Positions 3,295 to 25,411 of a stretch of 35,453 nt of DNA are shown piece by piece. The DNA is from an uncultured bacterium (GTDB taxonomy: Bacteria; Verrucomicrobiota; Kiritimatiellia; CAIKKV01; CAIYGI01), in assembly GCA_903925685.1 (NCBI GenBank), contig CAIYGI010000317.1, positions 1 through 35,453 of the forward strand. Reading direction: 5' to 3'. Each line of letters begins with the position of its first letter. Position 1 is the first letter of the stretch. The position numbers and the translations under genes were made by a program. The notes under the pieces are model-generated. The model saw nothing but the letters and a program-made list of their open reading frames with translations. It made no database searches and had not been told where the DNA came from.

Positions 3295-3681
3295 ATGAAA
3301 ACAATACTGGTTGTTGACGACGATCCCGATTGCCGCGAATTTGCGCAGGTTGTGCTTTCGCCGCGATACGAGGTGCGGATGGTCGCGTCCGCCGACCAAT
3401 GCCGCGCGGAACTGAAGGCCCGGAAACCGGACCTGATATTGCTCGACGTCATGATGAGCCAGTTGAGCGACGGACTTGAACTGGCCAAGGAATTGAAGGA
3501 AGCGCAGGCCACCAGCGCCATCCCGGTGATCATGCTCACCAACGTCACCGAGGTGTATGACTACCGCTCGCAGGTTGACGCCGCTTACTTCCCGCACGAC
3601 CGGTGGCTCGATAAACCAGTGAAAGCCGCCGACTTGCTGAAAGCGGTCGCCGATGTGCTGGATCGTCCGCCTGTATCGTAG
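3295..3681 (+). CDS. Single-domain response regulator (receiver, CheY-like)
   Basis: 128-residue protein consisting only of a phospho-acceptor receiver domain. The acidic pocket is Asp8-Asp9-Asp10 (VVDDDPD), the phosphorylation site is Asp51 (LILLDVMMS), the conserved Thr lies in IMLTNV and the Lys in WLDKPVK. No output domain follows, so it would act through protein contact, as CheY-type or phosphorelay intermediates do. No histidine kinase is in the window. It sits alone between hemL and moeA, same strand, so the partner cannot be inferred from context. Confidence 0.9.
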   Translation: MKTILVVDDDPDCREFAQVVLSPRYEVRMVASADQCRAELKARKPDLILLDVMMSQLSDGLELAKELKEAQATSAIPVIMLTNVTEVYDYRSQVDAAYFPHDRWLDKPVKAADLLKAVADVLDRPPVS

Positions 3682-4942: not shown

Positions 4943-5904
4943 TCTCCAGCCACACTTCAGCCGGACTTTACCTGCGGGTCTCCGTTACCGACCGTTGTCA
5001 ATTGCGTTGCCGCTATTGTATGCCAGCATGGGGTGTTCCGCTTTGTCCCAAGGACGAAATTCTCTCTTACGAGGAAATCGTCGCGCTGGTCGCCTGCCTG
5101 CAGGATGAGTTCGGCTTGTCCAAGGTCCGGATCACCGGCGGGGAACCGCTGGTTCGCGCCGGAATCGAACGGCTGGTCGGCATGCTCGCGGATCGCGGCA
5201 TACCGGATCTCGCCCTCACGACCAACGGGCTGCGTCTGGCCGAAATGGCGCCCATGCTCAAGCGCGCCGGATTACGCCGGGTGAACGTCAGCTTGGATTC
5301 GCTCTCGCCCGACACCTTCCGCCGTCTGACGGGAAGCGGGGAACTGCAGACCGTTTTGGATGGAATAGACGCGGCGCTGGACGCGGGACTGCTCCCGCTG
5401 AAACTGAACACCGTGGTGATCCGCGGAATCAACGGGCATGAGGTGCGGGATATCGTCGAATATGGACTGCAGCGGAATTGCGAGGTGCGGTTCATCGAAT
5501 TAATGCCGATCGGACCTGGCGCGGAACTATTCTCTGCTGGATTCGTTTCCTCCGAAGAGGTGCGGCAGGAACTATTAACGCATTTTACGGTTTTCCCACT
5601 CGATCAGGAACACGGACTCTCCGCCCGGCGCCATGGCGTAGTCAACGCCGTCGGAAATCGGGGCACGGTGGGCCTGATTTCCTCTTGCAGCGCCCCGTTT
5701 TGTGCTGAATGCTCGCGCCTCAGGGTAACGGCGGACGGTCGGCTGATCGGCTGCCTGGCCAGTAACGAAGGCATCCCTATCCGCGTGCCGTTGCGTGCCG
5801 GCGATACGACGGAGATCGGCCGTGCCGTGCGCCGCGTTTTGGAAGGCAAGACGGCGGACCGGATCTTTAAACAGGGAATGGCCATGGCATCGATCGGCGG
5901 GTAA
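4939..5904 (+). CDS. moaA: GTP 3',8-cyclase MoaA
   Basis: Radical-SAM enzyme that starts molybdenum-cofactor synthesis by cyclising GTP to 3',8-cyclo-7,8-dihydro-GTP, the substrate of MoaC. I start it at the GTG at 4939, which shares four bases (GTGA) with the moeA stop and has GGAG at 4929-4932; the frame is open further left but only as an overlap of moeA. This gives 321 residues, the family length. The N-terminal SAM cluster is Cys20-Cys24-Cys27, the second cluster Cys255-Cys258-Cys272, and the protein ends in the functionally required Gly-Gly pair. Complete and apparently active. Confidence 0.96.
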
Positions 5905-19234: not shown

Positions 19235-19274
19235 CTCGAACCTGATAGCCGCCGCGTGAAACGGCTGGTTCGAC
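19235..19274 (-). other. Degenerate attC-like hairpin after the BNR gene
   Basis: Minus strand: GTCGAAC (19268-19274), 2-base spacer CA, then GCCG...CGGC stem and a closing box GTTCGAG (19235-19241), one base off the GTTCGAC of the two better sites. The right-hand spacer is 6 rather than 3 bases and the inner stem is only 4-5 pairs. Lies 28 bases after the BNR stop, the expected cassette position. Weak alone; supported by the two sites at 20484 and 21148. Confidence 0.45.
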
Positions 19275-19302
19275 AATCTGCCATGCTGCGCGTCATCGCC
19301 CC

Positions 19303-20466
19303 TCACAGTTCCGACAGAGCCACGCGCAGAACCTGAATGGCTTCCTTCTGCCGCGAGACGATCACGTAGAGGTGGCCGCCATGTATCAGCGTGTGCGGAT
19401 AGCCGTATTCGCCGCCTTTCCAGCGGCCCGCCTGGCGCATGGAGTAACACTCGTCGCCCAGGATGAAATGCGTGTTGAACTGCACGCCGTCAAGCGAAAG
19501 CGACAGCGTTAGCGGAATACGGCCGGCCCCGATCGGACAGCCGACATAGTAGAAGCGCCCATCCGGTAGGCGTCCGAAGTGGAACTTGGTGTCAGTGTCG
19601 CTGAAATCGGTTTCGACCGGCGCAGACCAAGTTGCGCCGTTGTCGCGGCTTTCCGTGACCCAAAGGCGATTACGGAACTGCCCGCCCGTGCTGCGAAGCA
19701 GCGTGTGCAGCGCGCCATCATCCGTCTGGTAGAACGAGCCTTCGCAAAGAGCGGATGGCCAGCCTTGCTGCTTGGAAACATCCCAGAACGAAGCGGGATC
19801 ATCCTTGATTGTCGCGGACATGCTCGGTGGATAGATGCCCGTCATATGATAGCCTGTCAGCCCCGAAGGATCGTCGGTCCATGGAAAAGCGATGTTCCCG
19901 CAGATGATCAACCGGCCGGACACTGTACGCTGCGGAGGATGATTGGGATTTACCGGGATGCCGACGTCTCGCACGGCACTCCAGTGCTCGCCGTCCGTCG
20001 TTGTCATGGCTTGCAGGCGGGTCATTTCCTTGCGCTGGCCATAGTTGCCGAAGTAGGCAACCAACGTTCCATCGTGCTGGTGAAAACCCGCCGCGGTGAG
20101 CACACGTTCAACGCCGTTCGAGTCTCGCACGGAATCCGCCAGCGGGTGCGGCGCAATCCAATGAGCGAAGTCCTTTGCCGAGGCCATCAGCACGCGCTGG
20201 CCGGGCGCGTCCTCGTCCTTGCGGCTATTGGACCAGATCGCGAAAAAGCGGTTTCTGAAAACCGTGATGCTCGCATGATGAGAATAGGTCCATTCTGTCT
20301 CCGGGCTATAGAGGAACACGCTGTCCACCCTTGGTCGTGTCGCGCCAAGAAGCGCGACCGGCTTGCCATTCGCCCATTCAGCACAGTTCGTGATCGGGCT
20401 TTGCCCGCCCTCAACGGTGGGCGTAGTGAGAGTTCCCTCCTGACTGATTCGTTTGGTCCTCGCCAT
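19303..20466 (-). CDS. BNR/Asp-box sialidase-fold protein (exo-sialidase-like)
   Basis: 387 residues from ATG 20466 with AAAGGAGG upstream; longer frames run into the hairpin at 20484-20547. One clear Asp-box, SRDNGATWS, and several weaker ones (TTDGEHWSA, SLDGVQF), marking a beta-propeller of the sialidase/BNR type. I see no unmistakable arginine triad or nucleophile Tyr-Glu, so enzyme activity and substrate are open. No signal peptide, unlike most secreted sialidases. The gene starts 17 bases after one attC-like hairpin and ends 28 bases before another, so it fits a cassette. Confidence 0.72.
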   Translation of the reverse strand: MARTKRISQEGTLTTPTVEGGQSPITNCAEWANGKPVALLGATRPRVDSVFLYSPETEWTYSHHASITVFRNRFFAIWSNSRKDEDAPGQRVLMASAKDFAHWIAPHPLADSVRDSNGVERVLTAAGFHQHDGTLVAYFGNYGQRKEMTRLQAMTTTDGEHWSAVRDVGIPVNPNHPPQRTVSGRLIICGNIAFPWTDDPSGLTGYHMTGIYPPSMSATIKDDPASFWDVSKQQGWPSALCEGSFYQTDDGALHTLLRSTGGQFRNRLWVTESRDNGATWSAPVETDFSDTDTKFHFGRLPDGRFYYVGCPIGAGRIPLTLSLSLDGVQFNTHFILGDECYSMRQAGRWKGGEYGYPHTLIHGGHLYVIVSRQKEAIQVLRVALSEL

Positions 20467-20483
20467 GTCGTGCCTCCTTTCTG

Positions 20484-20547
20484 GTCGAACGACGCGCATG
20501 AACCTCGGCGCGGCTTCGCGCCGTAGTGTTCCATGCGCTGGTTCGAC
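20484..20547 (-). other. attC-like site 1 (cassette recombination site candidate)
   Basis: Read on the minus strand: box GTCGAAC (20541-20547), 2 bases, 7-bp stem GCGCATG, variable part, CATGCGC, 3 bases, box GTTCGAC (20484-20490). The variable part folds into a perfect 7-bp stem CGGCGCG/CGCGCCG with a GCTT loop (506-523). One unpaired base (20531) sits beside the 7-bp stem, like the extrahelical bases of attC. The boxes differ from attC RYYYAAC/GTTRRRY at one paired position. It starts 11 bases after the stop of the DUF4258 partner gene. Confidence 0.7.
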
Positions 20548-20557
20548 GCCCCATTAT

Positions 20558-20776
20558 TCAAACGGCAACGGGAGTAAGGCTGAACACGCGAGCTTGGCGG
20601 GCCGCCGCGCGGATGTCTCCGCGGCGTAAAGCTTCGCGGACATCATCGAGTCTGTAGGCATCTTCAACTGAAAGGTATGGAGACCAACTCTCGTCCGTCT
20701 CGATCATCTCGACATCCACTTCGGCCACGTATTGTCCTTCGTGAATCATTTTGGCTTGGTGTCTCTTATTCATCAT
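20558..20776 (-). CDS. Small partner of DUF4258 protein (putative antitoxin)
   Basis: 72-residue acidic-centred protein: a short beta start (GQYVAEVDVEMIE), SWSPYLSVEDAYRLDDVREALRRGDI and a basic C-terminal helix. Small proteins with the HEGQYVAEVDVE...SPYLS.EDA.RLDDVR pattern commonly sit beside DUF4258 genes, as here; I infer an antitoxin-like role. Its ATG overlaps the stop of the DUF4258 gene by 4 bases, so the pair is coupled, toxin-like gene first, as in HigBA. The attC-like site begins 11 bases after its stop. Confidence 0.78.
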   Translation of the reverse strand: MMNKRHQAKMIHEGQYVAEVDVEMIETDESWSPYLSVEDAYRLDDVREALRRGDIRAAARQARVFSLTPVAV

Positions 20777-21093
20777 ATTCTCCTCATGAAGTTCCTCGTC
20801 CAGCGCACGGGATCAGGTCGATAGGCTGTAACAAGAACGGCTGGCGACGCATGACCCTTCGGTATCCCCCACACAACATGAATGAATGCTCCCGTTTGAT
20901 CCCGTTGGAGCGCCAACACACTTGGCCCTTTGTGATAGTTCGGGTAGTCTTCAATGATGACCGCGTTTCCGATGCCGGCGATCACCTCTCTAACACCCAA
21001 ACCATCTTTGGCCAGTTCGTCGTACCCATGCTCTGAAATCCGCATCTCGCCATTTCGGACAAGCGTCAGAACAAGCTGAAACGTGTCGCTCAT
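20773..21093 (-). CDS. DUF4258 domain protein (RelE-like toxin candidate)
   Basis: 106-residue protein matching DUF4258: RISEHGYDELAKDGLGVREVIAGI, then a PNYHKGPSVLAL beta strand and IHVVWGIPKG...LVTAYRPDP. The fold is related to RelE/BrnT-type ribonuclease toxins (family knowledge). The His/Tyr/Asp/Arg residues expected in that fold (SEHGYD, YRPDPVRW) are present. No ribosome binding site is seen, but a promoter at 21100-21128 would give a leaderless message starting at the ATG. The gene pair is flanked exactly by attC-like hairpins, so it looks like a toxin-antitoxin gene cassette. Confidence 0.82.
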   Translation of the reverse strand: MSDTFQLVLTLVRNGEMRISEHGYDELAKDGLGVREVIAGIGNAVIIEDYPNYHKGPSVLALQRDQTGAFIHVVWGIPKGHASPAVLVTAYRPDPVRWTRNFMRRI

Positions 21094-21099
21094 GAGATT

Positions 21100-21128
21100 A
21101 GATTACTCTGGCGGCGTATCAGAATCAA
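21100..21128 (-). promoter_or_regulatory. Promoter inside the DUF4258 cassette
   Basis: Minus strand TTGATT (21123-21128), 17 bases, TAATCT (21100-21105). Transcription would begin at about 21093, the A of the DUF4258 ATG, predicting a leaderless mRNA. A cassette-borne promoter is common for toxin-antitoxin cassettes. Confidence 0.5.
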
Positions 21129-21147
21129 TCGCGTTTTTTATTATTTA

Positions 21148-21204
21148 GTCGAACGCCGCAGGTCAGGCGCGCTGTGAAGCGTCATCTGGACCTGCTTGTT
21201 CGAC
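21148..21204 (-). other. attC-like site 2 (cassette recombination site candidate)
   Basis: Minus strand: box GTCGAAC (21198-21204), 2 bases AA, 7-bp stem GCAGGTC, 24-base variable part, GACCTGC, 3 bases, box GTTCGAC (21148-21154). Box sequence, spacer lengths (2 and 3), stem length and the place of one unpaired base (21188, beside the inner stem) are the same as in the 20484 site, while stem and loop sequences differ. That is the pattern of attC sites: conserved structure, unrelated sequence. It lies 16 bases after the GH36 stop. Confidence 0.7.
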
Positions 21205-21220
21205 TCCTGTCAGGGGCATT

Positions 21221-23377
21221 CTACGCTCTCGCATACATCACCAACTCGCTCGTCATCGCCGCATCAAGACGCACGGGAAGTCCCTGTAGCGCAAGATCGC
21301 GACCGGACATGCGGAAGACTTGTGAGGCGTTGTCGAGCGTCACCTCGTAATCGGCGCCGGCATCCACGCCGCGCAGACGGAGGTGGTAATCGGCGGCGCC
21401 CCCCTGGAGCTTGAACACCCCCGCGTAGCCGCGGCTCCGGTCAGCGCAGGCATATTCGAGAACGCACCACTCGGTGGGTTTGAACAACCCGATGTCCGGC
21501 GTATGGTGATACACGACCGGATGCCCCGCCAATACGGGCCGGCAGAAACCCTTATGCAGGCCGATGTACCGGCGGGTTTTCGCAAAATACTCGGTGGACC
21601 GGTCCGCCCCCTGGGAACCGAATCCCACGTAGATGGGCACGGCAAAGAGCGTGACACGCAGGTGCGTATCGAGGTCGGCCACCTGGTGGGCGTGCTGGAT
21701 GTGGTTGTGATAGTAGACGAGCGCTTCGGGCGGAATGAAGAGGCTGAGCGCATTGATGGCGCGGATACTGTAGGGCATCACGCTCCAGTCGGACTCGCAG
21801 TTGTAGTGAAAACGTGCAACCATGCCGAGGTCATTCCGGCCGCCGCCGCCCGCGCAGTTCTCGAGGCACACGTCCGGGCATTCCTTGAGGATGCGGTCAT
21901 AGGCTCGGTGGACCGCCTCGGTGTGCCGCCAGATTTCAGCCTCGGCGTAACCGTCGCGCACGGTTTGGCCGCCTTCGCCGGTCGCAACGTTGTAGTCGAG
22001 TTTGTAGAAGTCCAGCTTGAACCCCTTGACGATCTTGACAATCGAATCCTCGAAGTACTTTGCCGCCTCGGCATTGGCCAGGTCGAGCGTGTCGGCACAT
22101 TCCCGGCCGTTGTCGGTCTTTAGCATCCAGTCGGGATGCTTCTCGAAGGCGCGCGTTTTCTTGGAGATGGCCTCCGCTTCATGCCAGAGCCCGAAGAGCA
22201 ATCCTTTCTTGTGCGCATGCTCGCGCAGTCCCTGGATGCCGCCGGGCAGCCAGTCGCCCTCGAACCAGTCGCCGCGGTGTTCCCACCAGTTGGCGAAGCT
22301 GTCGCCATACCACCCGGCGTCCACCATGAACGCTTCCACGCCCATCTCGGCGGCGATATCAATCTCCTTCGTGACCCAGTCGCCGGTCTCTTCCACCACG
22401 CGGCCCGCCACCGTATACATCTCCCTGCCCTTGGGGCGCGGCGGGATGACGCTGGCGCGCATGTGTCGATACCACAACCCGACGGCTTCATCGAACGAAC
22501 CGTGCATGGGGCCGAGATGGACCTCGGGGCTCGTGACGGTTTCGCCGGCGGCGATCAGGCGCAAGGGCGCCGGCGCATGCGGCCCGATGCGGAACGACAG
22601 CAGCGACTCGTGGCGATAAGCGAACTCGGCAAAGAAGTTCCCGCCCCAGGCCAACCCCAGAAAGAAGAGTTCGCCCGTGGCTTCGTTGCGCAGAATGTAG
22701 TAGGGCGATCCCCAGCAGCGGCCCGATTCCGTCCGTTCGATGCGGAAGTTCTCCGGTGGCAACGGTTGCCAGACGAGATTGCCCTCGTGCCCCCATTCCT
22801 CACTGGCGAAGTAGCCAAGCGTGAACTTGGACCGGCCCCGCTCCTCGAACGCGGGGTTAACATTCGCATAGTGGCGCAACTGGGCAGTGTTTGTGTTCCA
22901 CAGCACTCCGGACCAGGGGGTGACGCGGCCGAGCGCGGCTGGTTCCTGGCCGGTGTTGGTGATCTCCAGATAGCGAGCGAACACCGACGAGCCGTCCAGG
23001 CGCGTGACGACCTTGACAGTGACAGGGCGGATCTGGTGCTTCAATTCGACTACGGCCTCCGTTGTCCCCGGGCGCTTTCCCGTCCGGCGGGAAAACTCCA
23101 CCATCTCCCATCGGTTGTGCAAAGACTGCCCGTCGATTTCCAGTTCAAAGGCATGGATCGGACGCTTGAGAGAGTCGAGTCCCGGCAGGCCTGAAACGAC
23201 GTTTTCGCGGTGGACATGGCCGGTCGCGGACCAGTATAGCCCGACCCAGCGGCCATTTTCCAGCGCCTCCTCGCAAACGGCGGCGGCCGAAACATAGCGC
23301 GCGGTCGGTCGCTTGCCCGCCTGGTGAAAACTGATGGCCGCATGGCCACTCAGCCTGTCTTCGATATCAGATTCCAT
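21221..23377 (-). CDS. Alpha-galactosidase, glycoside hydrolase family 36
   Basis: 718 residues: N-terminal beta-supersandwich (about 1-310), TIM barrel (about 320-640) and a C-terminal beta domain, the full GH36 plan. The catalytic nucleophile is Asp461 (FYKLDYN) and the acid/base Asp530 (NCESDWSV); VDAGWYGD (352-359), FGLWHEAEAIS and ENCAGGGGRNDLGM are the other substrate-site blocks. It releases terminal alpha-1,6-galactose from raffinose-type or galactomannan oligosaccharides. No signal peptide, so it works on imported sugars. AAGGAGG precedes the ATG. First unit of the cassette-like array, with its own promoter at 23419-23447; its stop is followed at once by an attC-like hairpin. Confidence 0.92.
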   Translation of the reverse strand: MESDIEDRLSGHAAISFHQAGKRPTARYVSAAAVCEEALENGRWVGLYWSATGHVHRENVVSGLPGLDSLKRPIHAFELEIDGQSLHNRWEMVEFSRRTGKRPGTTEAVVELKHQIRPVTVKVVTRLDGSSVFARYLEITNTGQEPAALGRVTPWSGVLWNTNTAQLRHYANVNPAFEERGRSKFTLGYFASEEWGHEGNLVWQPLPPENFRIERTESGRCWGSPYYILRNEATGELFFLGLAWGGNFFAEFAYRHESLLSFRIGPHAPAPLRLIAAGETVTSPEVHLGPMHGSFDEAVGLWYRHMRASVIPPRPKGREMYTVAGRVVEETGDWVTKEIDIAAEMGVEAFMVDAGWYGDSFANWWEHRGDWFEGDWLPGGIQGLREHAHKKGLLFGLWHEAEAISKKTRAFEKHPDWMLKTDNGRECADTLDLANAEAAKYFEDSIVKIVKGFKLDFYKLDYNVATGEGGQTVRDGYAEAEIWRHTEAVHRAYDRILKECPDVCLENCAGGGGRNDLGMVARFHYNCESDWSVMPYSIRAINALSLFIPPEALVYYHNHIQHAHQVADLDTHLRVTLFAVPIYVGFGSQGADRSTEYFAKTRRYIGLHKGFCRPVLAGHPVVYHHTPDIGLFKPTEWCVLEYACADRSRGYAGVFKLQGGAADYHLRLRGVDAGADYEVTLDNASQVFRMSGRDLALQGLPVRLDAAMTSELVMYARA

Positions 23378-23418
23378 ATTGGGCCTCCTTGAGGTGTTAA
23401 TGGGTGCCGAACCTCTGT

Positions 23419-23447
23419 ATTATACGTCAGCATGTCGGGTTATACGA
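23419..23447 (-). promoter_or_regulatory. Promoter for GH36 with overlapping palindrome
   Basis: Minus strand perfect -10 TATAAT (23419-23424) with a weak -35 TCGTAT (23442-23447) at 17 bases. Start site near 23412, leaving a leader of about 35 bases with a good ribosome binding site. It lies between the integrase remnant and the first cassette, the place of a cassette promoter. Confidence 0.5.
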
Positions 23448-23491
23448 TCTGGACCCTTCCGGGCACCGTTTCGACCGTGTATTCCCGACAT
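23432..23491. repeat. Inverted repeat upstream of GH36
   Basis: ATGTCGGG (23432-23439) and CCCGACAT (23484-23491), extended by ATAC/GTAT after a 2-base mismatch, separated by about 30 bases. It overlaps the -35 region of the GH36 promoter, so it could be an operator, or part of the integrase attachment region. The boxes do not match attC. Confidence 0.45.
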
Positions 23492-23771
23492 CTGGCACTT
23501 GCCGATGGGGAAAGCGCCTAAGCGGACGGGTTTTCCGACCGGCGAGTGAACTCTACAAGCAACGCCGGAGTGTGCGCAAGTCGGAAATGGCACAAAATAC
23601 GTCCGGCGATGGTGGAGGTGCGTCAGAATGGCGCGATGTGGCGAGACGTCGGCAGACCCCGGCCTGGAATCCGATGGAATGGTGGCGGTCAGGCGCTCGA
23701 TGGACGGCGGAAGGCGAGGAAGCCGTCCCGCCAACGTAAGCGGAGGAAGTTCAGGAACCGGACGGCAGGGT

Positions 23772-23838: not shown

Positions 23839-24590
23839 CAGTCGGTCCAGTGGACTCTGCGTATTGGGGAACAGGCATCGCAGGTAGATCATGGTGGTTT
23901 TGACGGAGCGATGGCCCAGGCGGGTCTGTATGGCGCGGATGTTCTCGCGGGCTTCCAGTGCGTGAACGGCGTGGCTGTGGCGAAGCGTCATGGCGCTGAC
24001 GGACTTGTCGATTCCGGCGTCGCGGGCGGCAGTGCGCACGATGCGCTCGATGGTGCGGATTGTTATCGGAGCCGGATTCCAGCAGGTGCGTCGCAAAGGA
24101 ATGACGAAGCGTGTGGCTGTGGGCGGGTTTGTCGATGCCCGCTTCAAGCACGGCCTTGTGAATGGCGCGTTGGATCACCTGTTCGTCGAGGTGATGGCGT
24201 TGGACACGCCCCGAACGTGGATCGGTGGAATGCGTGGCGGCCGGGAAGACGTACTGCCAGCGCCAGTGGCGGTTTTCGTGAGGGTATTTCACTTCGAGCG
24301 CGTAGGGCAGATAGACGGTGCCGTGGCCGGCAGCGAGGTCGTCTTCGTGTAATTTCTTGACCTCGACGAGATGGTCGCGCAGACGTGGGACTACATTTTT
24401 AGGGAGCATGAGTCGGCGATCCTTGTCGCCTTTGGCCTCACGGACGATCAGCATGTTCCGGTCGAAATCCACGTCCTTGACGCGCAGGCGCAGCGCCTCC
24501 AACAGGCGCATGCCGGTGCCGTACATCATTTCGGCCACCAGTCCCGGGATTCCCTGCATATGTTCCAGAAGTCTGGTGGTTTCATGGCCT
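23839..24590 (-). pseudogene. Broken integron integrase (IntI-type tyrosine recombinase), chimeric
   Basis: Catalytic domain of an integron integrase. Visible: LLYGTG-type block MMYGTGMRLLEALRLRVKD with the first catalytic Arg, REAKGDKDR with the catalytic Lys, the IntI-specific insertion HENRHWRWQYVFPA, DPRSGRVQRHHL and HTLRHSFATHLLESG. The N-terminal core-binding domain is missing; similarity begins near ETTRLLEHMQG at about 24590. At about 24061 the frame shifts, and the new frame starts IRTIERIVRTAARDAGIDKS and runs through a second TLRHSHAVHALE box to LGHRSVKTT, the tyrosine in MIYL and QSPLDRL. So two recombinase 3' ends are joined in tandem. It cannot make an active enzyme as it stands, barring a sequencing error at the shift. 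Confidence 0.82.
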
Positions 24591-24693: not shown

Positions 24694-24854
24694 TCATTCC
24701 GCTGCCGCTGGCAGCAGCCATCGGGCTGGATGCCGGTGAGGAGTTCCAGTGGTCGGTGGCCGACAGAAATTCGCTATCCATACATCGCGTCAGTCCGGTT
24801 CAGGCGACAGCACGGGGCGCACAAGGATCGCCGCGCAAAGAATGAGGCCCCAAC

Positions 24855-24893
24855 TTTTTCAAAAAGTGTTCAAAACTGTTCAAAAGTGTTCGG
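24855..24893 (+). repeat. Phased 10-bp repeats (GTTCAAAANT)
   Basis: Three to four copies of TTCAAAA with GTTC at 24868, 24878 and 24888, exactly 10 bases apart and so on one face of the helix. A possible -10 (TATACT, 24901-24906) follows on the plus strand. It may be a protein-binding site. The rest of 24700-24985 shows no gene I can support. Confidence 0.45.
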
Positions 24894-24989
24894 GCTAGGC
24901 TATACTTCTTCACGGCTGGTTCCTGCTTTTGCATCCTTTGTGACTGCTTCGTGATAAACATCAGTAGCATCCCACAGGATTCAGGTTGA

Positions 24990-25108
24990 TAGACTGTAGG
25001 CTGTTAGACTGTTAGGAAATACTTGTATTCCTGTTTGATTTCGCGGCAAGTCATTTACGACATCTGAAATTCATTGGCATGCAATTATACCTAACAGCCT
25101 ACAGCCTA
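24990..25108. repeat. Inverted pair of 7-bp repeats (TAGGCTG) around a gene-less core
   Basis: Left block 24990-25016 has units TAGACTG, TAGGCTG, TAGACTG and TAGG; right block 25090-25108 has two CAGCCTA units. Eighteen bases of the left block match the inverted right block with one mismatch. The 73-base AT-richer core holds AATAC-TT-GTATT and no reading frame. Layout and polarity (G-rich left, C-rich right) copy the element at 1294-1941. Confidence 0.65.
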
Positions 25109-25336
25109 AACCGCTTCAGCCTCGGCATTGTCCCCGTTCCAAACCGCCACGAAATTAGCCCCGTTAGCCACTTTTCGCCCCTCGACGCCCACTCCGCAAC
25201 GTAAGATCGATGAAGGAAGTTGAGGGAGTGGCTTGCTTTCCACAGAAGATTTTACGATGCTTGGCCCATACACGTTCGGCAACCGGCATTTCGCAGGACG
25301 GGATGAGCGCGACCGTCGGCGCACAAGTGGCATCGC

Positions 25337-25411
25337 ATGAAAACGCTTCGAGTTCTGACCATTGGCAACAGCCTGATGGACAACGCCCTCTGCGAACGGG
25401 TCATTACATAA
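25337..25411 (+). pseudogene. Truncated start of a DUF4886/SGNH-like gene
   Basis: A 24-codon frame beginning MKTLRVLTIGNSLMDNAL, the conserved first strand and GNS nucleophile block of DUF4886/SGNH-type hydrolases, then broken off to a stop. It ends 3 bases before the murD ATG. Probably a relic left by deletion or insertion upstream of murD. Confidence 0.4.

Follow-up and report, generated by a model that had tools for sequence, protein, structure and literature searches.

The window (the whole 35,453-nucleotide stretch of DNA that was analysed, a contig of an uncultured bacterium of the class Kiritimatiellia) carries on its minus strand, in this order, a remnant of an integron integrase (IntI), a leader with a putative attI site, a gene for a GH36-like alpha-galactosidase (Melibiase; 718 aa, 21221-23377, PF02065, E 9e-37) with the hairpin attC1 (21148-21204), a pair of small genes with the hairpin attC2 (20484-20547), a gene for a BNR-repeat (sialidase-like) protein (387 aa, 19303-20466, PF13088, E 1e-25) that starts 17 bases after attC2, and a worn third site of attC type. 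The pair consists of a DUF4258 protein (106 aa, 20773-21093, PF14076, E 2.8e-15) and a 72-aa partner with no family match (20558-20776), the two genes overlapping by 4 bases; judging from this arrangement and from the DUF4258 family, it may be called toxin-antitoxin-like, with a toxin-like DUF4258 protein and an antitoxin-like partner. To the left of the array, an efflux (TolC) operon is syntenic in two relatives (G004 and G008), where it is found without cassettes. No clean pair of empty and occupied sites was found in the same genus, in which genome G001 aligns only up to position 25224 and its contig ends near there. At window position 25384, G001 has about 800 extra bases (L098 6797-7605), on a contig that ends close to the integron start. 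Two dispersed repeats were also noted, one at 24961-25126 with many copies in the same genome, G001 and other genomes of the order, and one at 24849-24963 that is 97% identical to a place on contig C31. The only Rfam match in the window is a group II catalytic intron family (61-137, 57 bits, E 8e-9), and this search returned no attC-related family.

An earlier note, made from the letters alone, had taken the two hairpins for attC sites bracketing the DUF4258 pair. Both hairpins are present and do bracket the pair, and on the minus strand each reads GTCGAAC, two spacer bases, a 7-bp stem, the second half of that 7-bp stem, three spacer bases and GTTCGAC, with the first unpaired base at position 17 of the 5' arm in both. 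They lie just past stop codons (attC1 16 bases after the stop ending at 21221, attC2 10 bases after the stop ending at 20558), and no dinucleotide shuffle folds as well as they do in single-stranded form (z -6.2 for 20484-20547 and -4.2 for 21148-21204). The fine structure of known attC sites (PMC2727003) is present as well, namely single unpaired bases on the R''-L'' arm, an unpaired central spacer of 2/3 bases and a C directly before GTT. In the genome (4.12 Mb), the exact pair of boxes was found only at these two sites and in two unrelated simple repeats on contig C191 (3331-3399 and 3630-3698), which are of the type GTCGAACATTGAACAGTCAACATCGAAC and contain the same box words. When relatives were searched at the DNA level with the 791-bp interval, the hairpins came back apart from the genes, with about 77-93% identity, beside different sequences and in many genomes.

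Covariance models point in the same direction. Model R1 was built from 14 sites like attC2 (including attC2 itself) and model R2 from four sites like attC1, and each finds the hairpin that is absent from it: R1 detects attC1 (28.7 bits, E 2.9e-6 in the window and 2.4e-5 in 291 kb) and R2 detects attC2 (28.4 bits, E 3.3e-5 in 291 kb). A third model, R3, comprises 16 sites on nine contigs, none of them in the window, which R1 had picked out no more than a few kb away from intact IntI genes; R1, which contains attC2, also supplied its alignment, so that for attC2 the independence is one of sequences and not of the seed. With this model made from integrase-linked sites, the hairpins rank first and second in the window, each on the predicted minus strand (attC2, 72.5 bits, E 2.9e-16; attC1, 40.9 bits, E 3e-8). 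Box-and-stem scanners were also tried across loci and dropped as too strict, most sites being missed because the last six bases of an arrayed site belong to the next cassette. On the strength of fold, position and model matches, we regard the two hairpins as real integron recombination sites (attC).

The boxes of these sites depart from the consensus RYYYAAC/GTTRRRY, since GTCGAAC has a G instead of a pyrimidine at position 4. The deviation pointed out in the earlier note is thus real at that one position, but it is not special to the locus: position 4 is G in 30 of the 48 sites of the class with AAC in place, only five of the 48 obey RYYYAAC, and the array beside an intact IntI on contig C313 includes both GCCTAAC and GCCGAAC boxes. 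As most sites in the class, some of them beside intact IntI genes, break RYYYAAC, this consensus is not a dependable defining feature here and its violation is not decisive. The weaker third site announced after the BNR gene (19235-19274, minus strand, GTCGAAC CA ... GTTCGAG) fared less evenly. Its sequence is there, it folds, and its boxes, place and strand are right, but its model score is not significant (8.5 bits, E 4.9). The box pattern GTCGAAC..GTTCGA (spacing 15-45), which is expected 0.05 times in the window, occurs at attC1 and at this third site, and a similarly short site (1894-1927) is held by an array on contig C125 of the same genome. The third site is probably at best a short, degenerate attC, which leaves it uncertain where the BNR cassette ends on its outer side.

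At the head of the array, the broken IntI that had been suspected is real. Its main fragment (24065-24586, minus strand) matches TIGR02249 with 242 bits, below the cut-off of 265, over profile positions 105-278 of 315; the IntI-specific insert is present, the N-terminal part (the first ~105 profile positions) is missing, and the fragment is ~41-59% identical to intact IntI proteins. A second C-terminal fragment of the integrase family lies in another frame (23839-24054, minus strand) and overlaps the first in content, the stretch AGIDK..TLRHS occurring once in each; a simple frameshift would not produce this, because the second fragment repeats part of the first. Judged by its sequence, the local integrase is a dead relic of the IntI family, predicted to be incapable of making an enzyme. 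The remnant was also considered as a member of the clade of same-direction integrases described below, but it has no firm place on the tree.

Between the integrase remnant and GH36 lies a leader of 170 bp (23406-23582, minus strand). Further copies of it are present in this genome on contigs C125, C204 and C114, with a partial copy on C209 that is truncated and ends before GTT (copies at L102 4578-4750, L103 2133-2310, L104 1308-1403 and L105 1198-1314). C204 and C209 also have other repeated stretches in common. Read in gene direction, the leader copies agree up to GAGGTTCG and diverge immediately after it. Compared with C125, the window is identical at 47/48 positions before G|TT, at 5/6 of the next six bases and at 13/48 thereafter; the corresponding values are 44/48, 5/6 and 12/48 for C114, and 35/48, 6/6 and 14/48 for C204. 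Identity past G|TT is thus at chance level, different genes follow at C125, C114 and C204, and no similarity among the copies was detected beyond this point except one 18-bp match between C204 and C114. The crossover would fall at 23412|23411 (G and T), and the start codon of GH36 follows 34 bases later. Beyond the leader, C125 has five attC-like sites (3850, 3150, 2364, 1927 and 1107), all on the same strand, and C114 has a small ORF and an attC at 923-858. The leader lies next to intI and breaks at G|TT, and by these sequence features it is recognisable as a putative attI with different first cassettes. An attI crossover right before GH36 would make GH36 the first cassette. Against this reading, the cassette's 5' core (TTCGGC) has one mismatch to the complement of the box of its own attC1.

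The borders of the first cassette are given by the attI and attC1 crossover points (21154-23411, the GH36 gene plus most of attC1), and those of the second by the two bracketing attC sites (20490-21153, the gene pair plus most of attC2); the BNR gene is probably the third. The second cassette finds parallels among the relatives. The DUF4258 pair is present in 3 of the 55 relatives searched, with the partner kept beside DUF4258 in all three loci (L014, L015 and L016). In another family of the class (L015), the pair (1452-1987) again lies between two attC sites (1330-1390 and 1992-2050); in L014, an attC upstream of the pair is found by the model and a downstream site, missed by the models, was read by eye; and in L016 (1422-1960, G047) the pair is free-standing, without attC, between hisH-like and purQ-like genes as identified by eye from translations. 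The BNR protein has one relative (70% identity, G022), and at the DNA level GH36 has one (76% identity, G006), with no attC nearby. Neither gene was seen in other arrays among the relatives, so that it is attI, attC1 and attC2 that mark them as cassettes. Conservation of the gene units as one block, named in the earlier note as an objection, is not what these distributions show. Searches of PDB and PADLOC with the DUF4258 protein gave no match, and no plasmid relatives were found.

A second integron in the same genome was missed by the earlier description of the array, as was the attI that marks GH36 as a cassette. It lies on contig C313 (L021, 4904-16053) and is complete, with an intact IntI bearing the usual catalytic motifs, seven attC sites and a divergent layout. 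The products of its cassettes include HNH and GH53-like proteins, a DNA methylase and a GH127 enzyme from a cassette of about 2 kb, next to which the 2.26-kb GH36 cassette is not out of scale. The two loci resemble each other in their sugar-enzyme cassettes and in related attC sites (C313:9264-9326 and attC2 both score 83-84 bits with R1, which contains both); they differ in that C313 has an intact IntI, about 50% identical to the window remnant, and a divergent layout, and no similar leader was found on it.

Among the 56 genomes searched, including the one studied here (the class also has a genome labelled Lentisphaerales by its submitter), an integrase above the curated cut-off was found in 25 and attC in 29. 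With thresholds of E below 1e-40 for the integrase and below 1e-3 for R1 attC matches, both were present in 18 genomes, the integrase only in nine, attC only in 11 and neither in 18 (Fisher p 0.037). This gives weak support for an association, and a weak one is expected because the assemblies are fragmented and the model was fitted to one attC subtype. Integrase and attC lie on the same strand, the array following on the 3' side of the integrase, in G007:C167, G029:C15, G026:C39 and G053:C14, whereas the integrase diverges from the array on C313 and in G012:C185, G045:C133, G004:C16, G016:C34, G042:C19 and G038:C13. On the tree, these four same-direction integrases form one group (one change; 70% of bootstrap trees), with a weak joining branch (60/78), and the direction of the integrase relative to the array seems to follow integrase phylogeny in the class (L110, L111, L115 and L119 versus L021, L118 and L123-L127).

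Taken together, the locus is very probably a sedentary chromosomal integron, of same-direction layout, that has decayed. What can be read from the sequence is two attC sites, an attI breakpoint, the use of a single strand, an apparently dead integrase and a second-cassette gene pair that lies between attC sites in another family as well; the cassettes all have one orientation, and their genes end just before attC. The integron-like array of the earlier note is in this way borne out, and stands more firmly with the covariance models, the attI and the integron on C313 than it could from a first reading. Integrase and genes do all point the same way, as had been said, but this layout is not new, being already known from Treponema (PMC3607928) and present in relatives with an intact integrase.

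Among other explanations, the one that fares best grants that the cassettes are real and supposes that an integrase acting in trans, such as the C313 IntI, put them into a stray attI-like module, the adjacent remnant deriving from another event. No integrase remnant was detected beside the leader copies on C114, C204 and C209 (the last truncated), so the leader could have another origin; those on C114 and C204 also precede different genes and, on C114, an attC. The remnant's two overlapping fragments and its loose position on the tree fit this explanation, and an intact IntI is at hand on C313. Against it, the window shares with C125 not only the leader but also the IntI tail (MIYLRCL..NTQSPLDRL), so that the integrase remnant and this leader did belong together, and relatives have same-direction platforms with intact IntI and similar spacing (in L111, the IntI domain ends at 3543 and the first attC is at 5805). 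We consider this explanation rather unlikely. Still less probable is that the leader is an unrelated dispersed promoter-like element whose end at GTT is coincidental, the DUF4258 pair being the sole cassette and GH36 a chromosomal gene of the usual kind. That the truncated copy on C209 stops before GTT, and that the DNA relative of GH36 in G006 stands away from any attC, would suit such a view, but in four leader copies the similarity breaks off at one and the same G|TT, which is the integrase crossover motif, attC-bearing units follow two of the other three copies, and large sugar-enzyme cassettes are normal in this genome. Finally, the hairpins are GC-rich and close to stop codons, as REP/BIME-like repeats or transcription terminators at gene ends might be, but this can practically be dismissed, because near-identical copies are not scattered over the genome (apart from AAC/GTT, stems and bulges, the members are not alike), each array stays on one strand, a terminator scan does not list the hairpins, and the model from integrase-linked sites finds both. 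An identity as REP/BIME elements was rejected for want of many near-identical copies in both orientations without bounded genes; the genome-wide recurrence of that kind named in the earlier note as an objection was not seen, attC-model matches being few, at gene ends and on one strand within each array.

The preferred reading, a decayed same-direction integron, can be compared with several known systems. With two attC sites 600 bp apart and no functional integrase, the locus resembles a CALIN as used by IntegronFinder (at least two attC sites within 4 kb, no integrase; PMC9024848), but it differs in having kept a defined attI and a remnant of the integrase, by which it can be traced to a complete integron. 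It is like the Treponema-type sedentary chromosomal integrons (PMC3607928) in that IntI is transcribed toward attI, in the direction of the cassettes, and in its attC-bounded cassettes on one strand, and unlike them in its dead integrase, its host group, its very short array and the occurrence of the leader (attI) module at several other places in the genome. In archaea, attI sites downstream of intI have also been described (PMC9668308). Two-gene toxin-antitoxin cassettes within a cassette array are familiar from the Vibrio cholerae superintegron (PMC8618304), but here the putative toxin is of the DUF4258 family and its partner is of no known family.

By analogy with established integrons, the cassettes would have been captured one at a time, folded attC bottom strands recombining with double-stranded attI under an IntI. 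The local IntI may then have decayed through 5' loss and rearrangement, leaving the array frozen, although the C313 integrase, being intact, might still act on its cassettes in trans. Expression of the cassettes would be expected from a leader promoter; a TATAAT stands just before the crossover point, and a promoter scan lists no promoter at this place.

What is most unusual about the locus is that one genome has several copies of attI, and no described arrangement matching the repeated leader was found in a brief literature search. One possible, though tentative, explanation is a distributed integron, in which an attI-plus-leader of about 170 bp was copied to at least four places (C317, the contig of the window, C125, C114 and C204) and each copy received cassettes of its own through an integrase in trans. 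Insertion points rather than integrases would then perhaps have been multiplied, two of the copies being those with no detected integrase remnant. The repeated attI module would make it possible to put cassette capture in trans to the test.

The best-known integrons are those of Proteobacteria. Verrucomicrobiota are among the phyla with integrons (PMC8618304), and little literature was found on integrons of the present class; the mechanism itself is already known, and it is the host group that is little studied. Since G at position 4 is class-wide, such sites would escape any search or primer that relies on RYYYAAC. The arrays of this host hold large carbohydrate-enzyme cassettes, which suggests that integrons shuffle polysaccharide-degradation genes in these bacteria.
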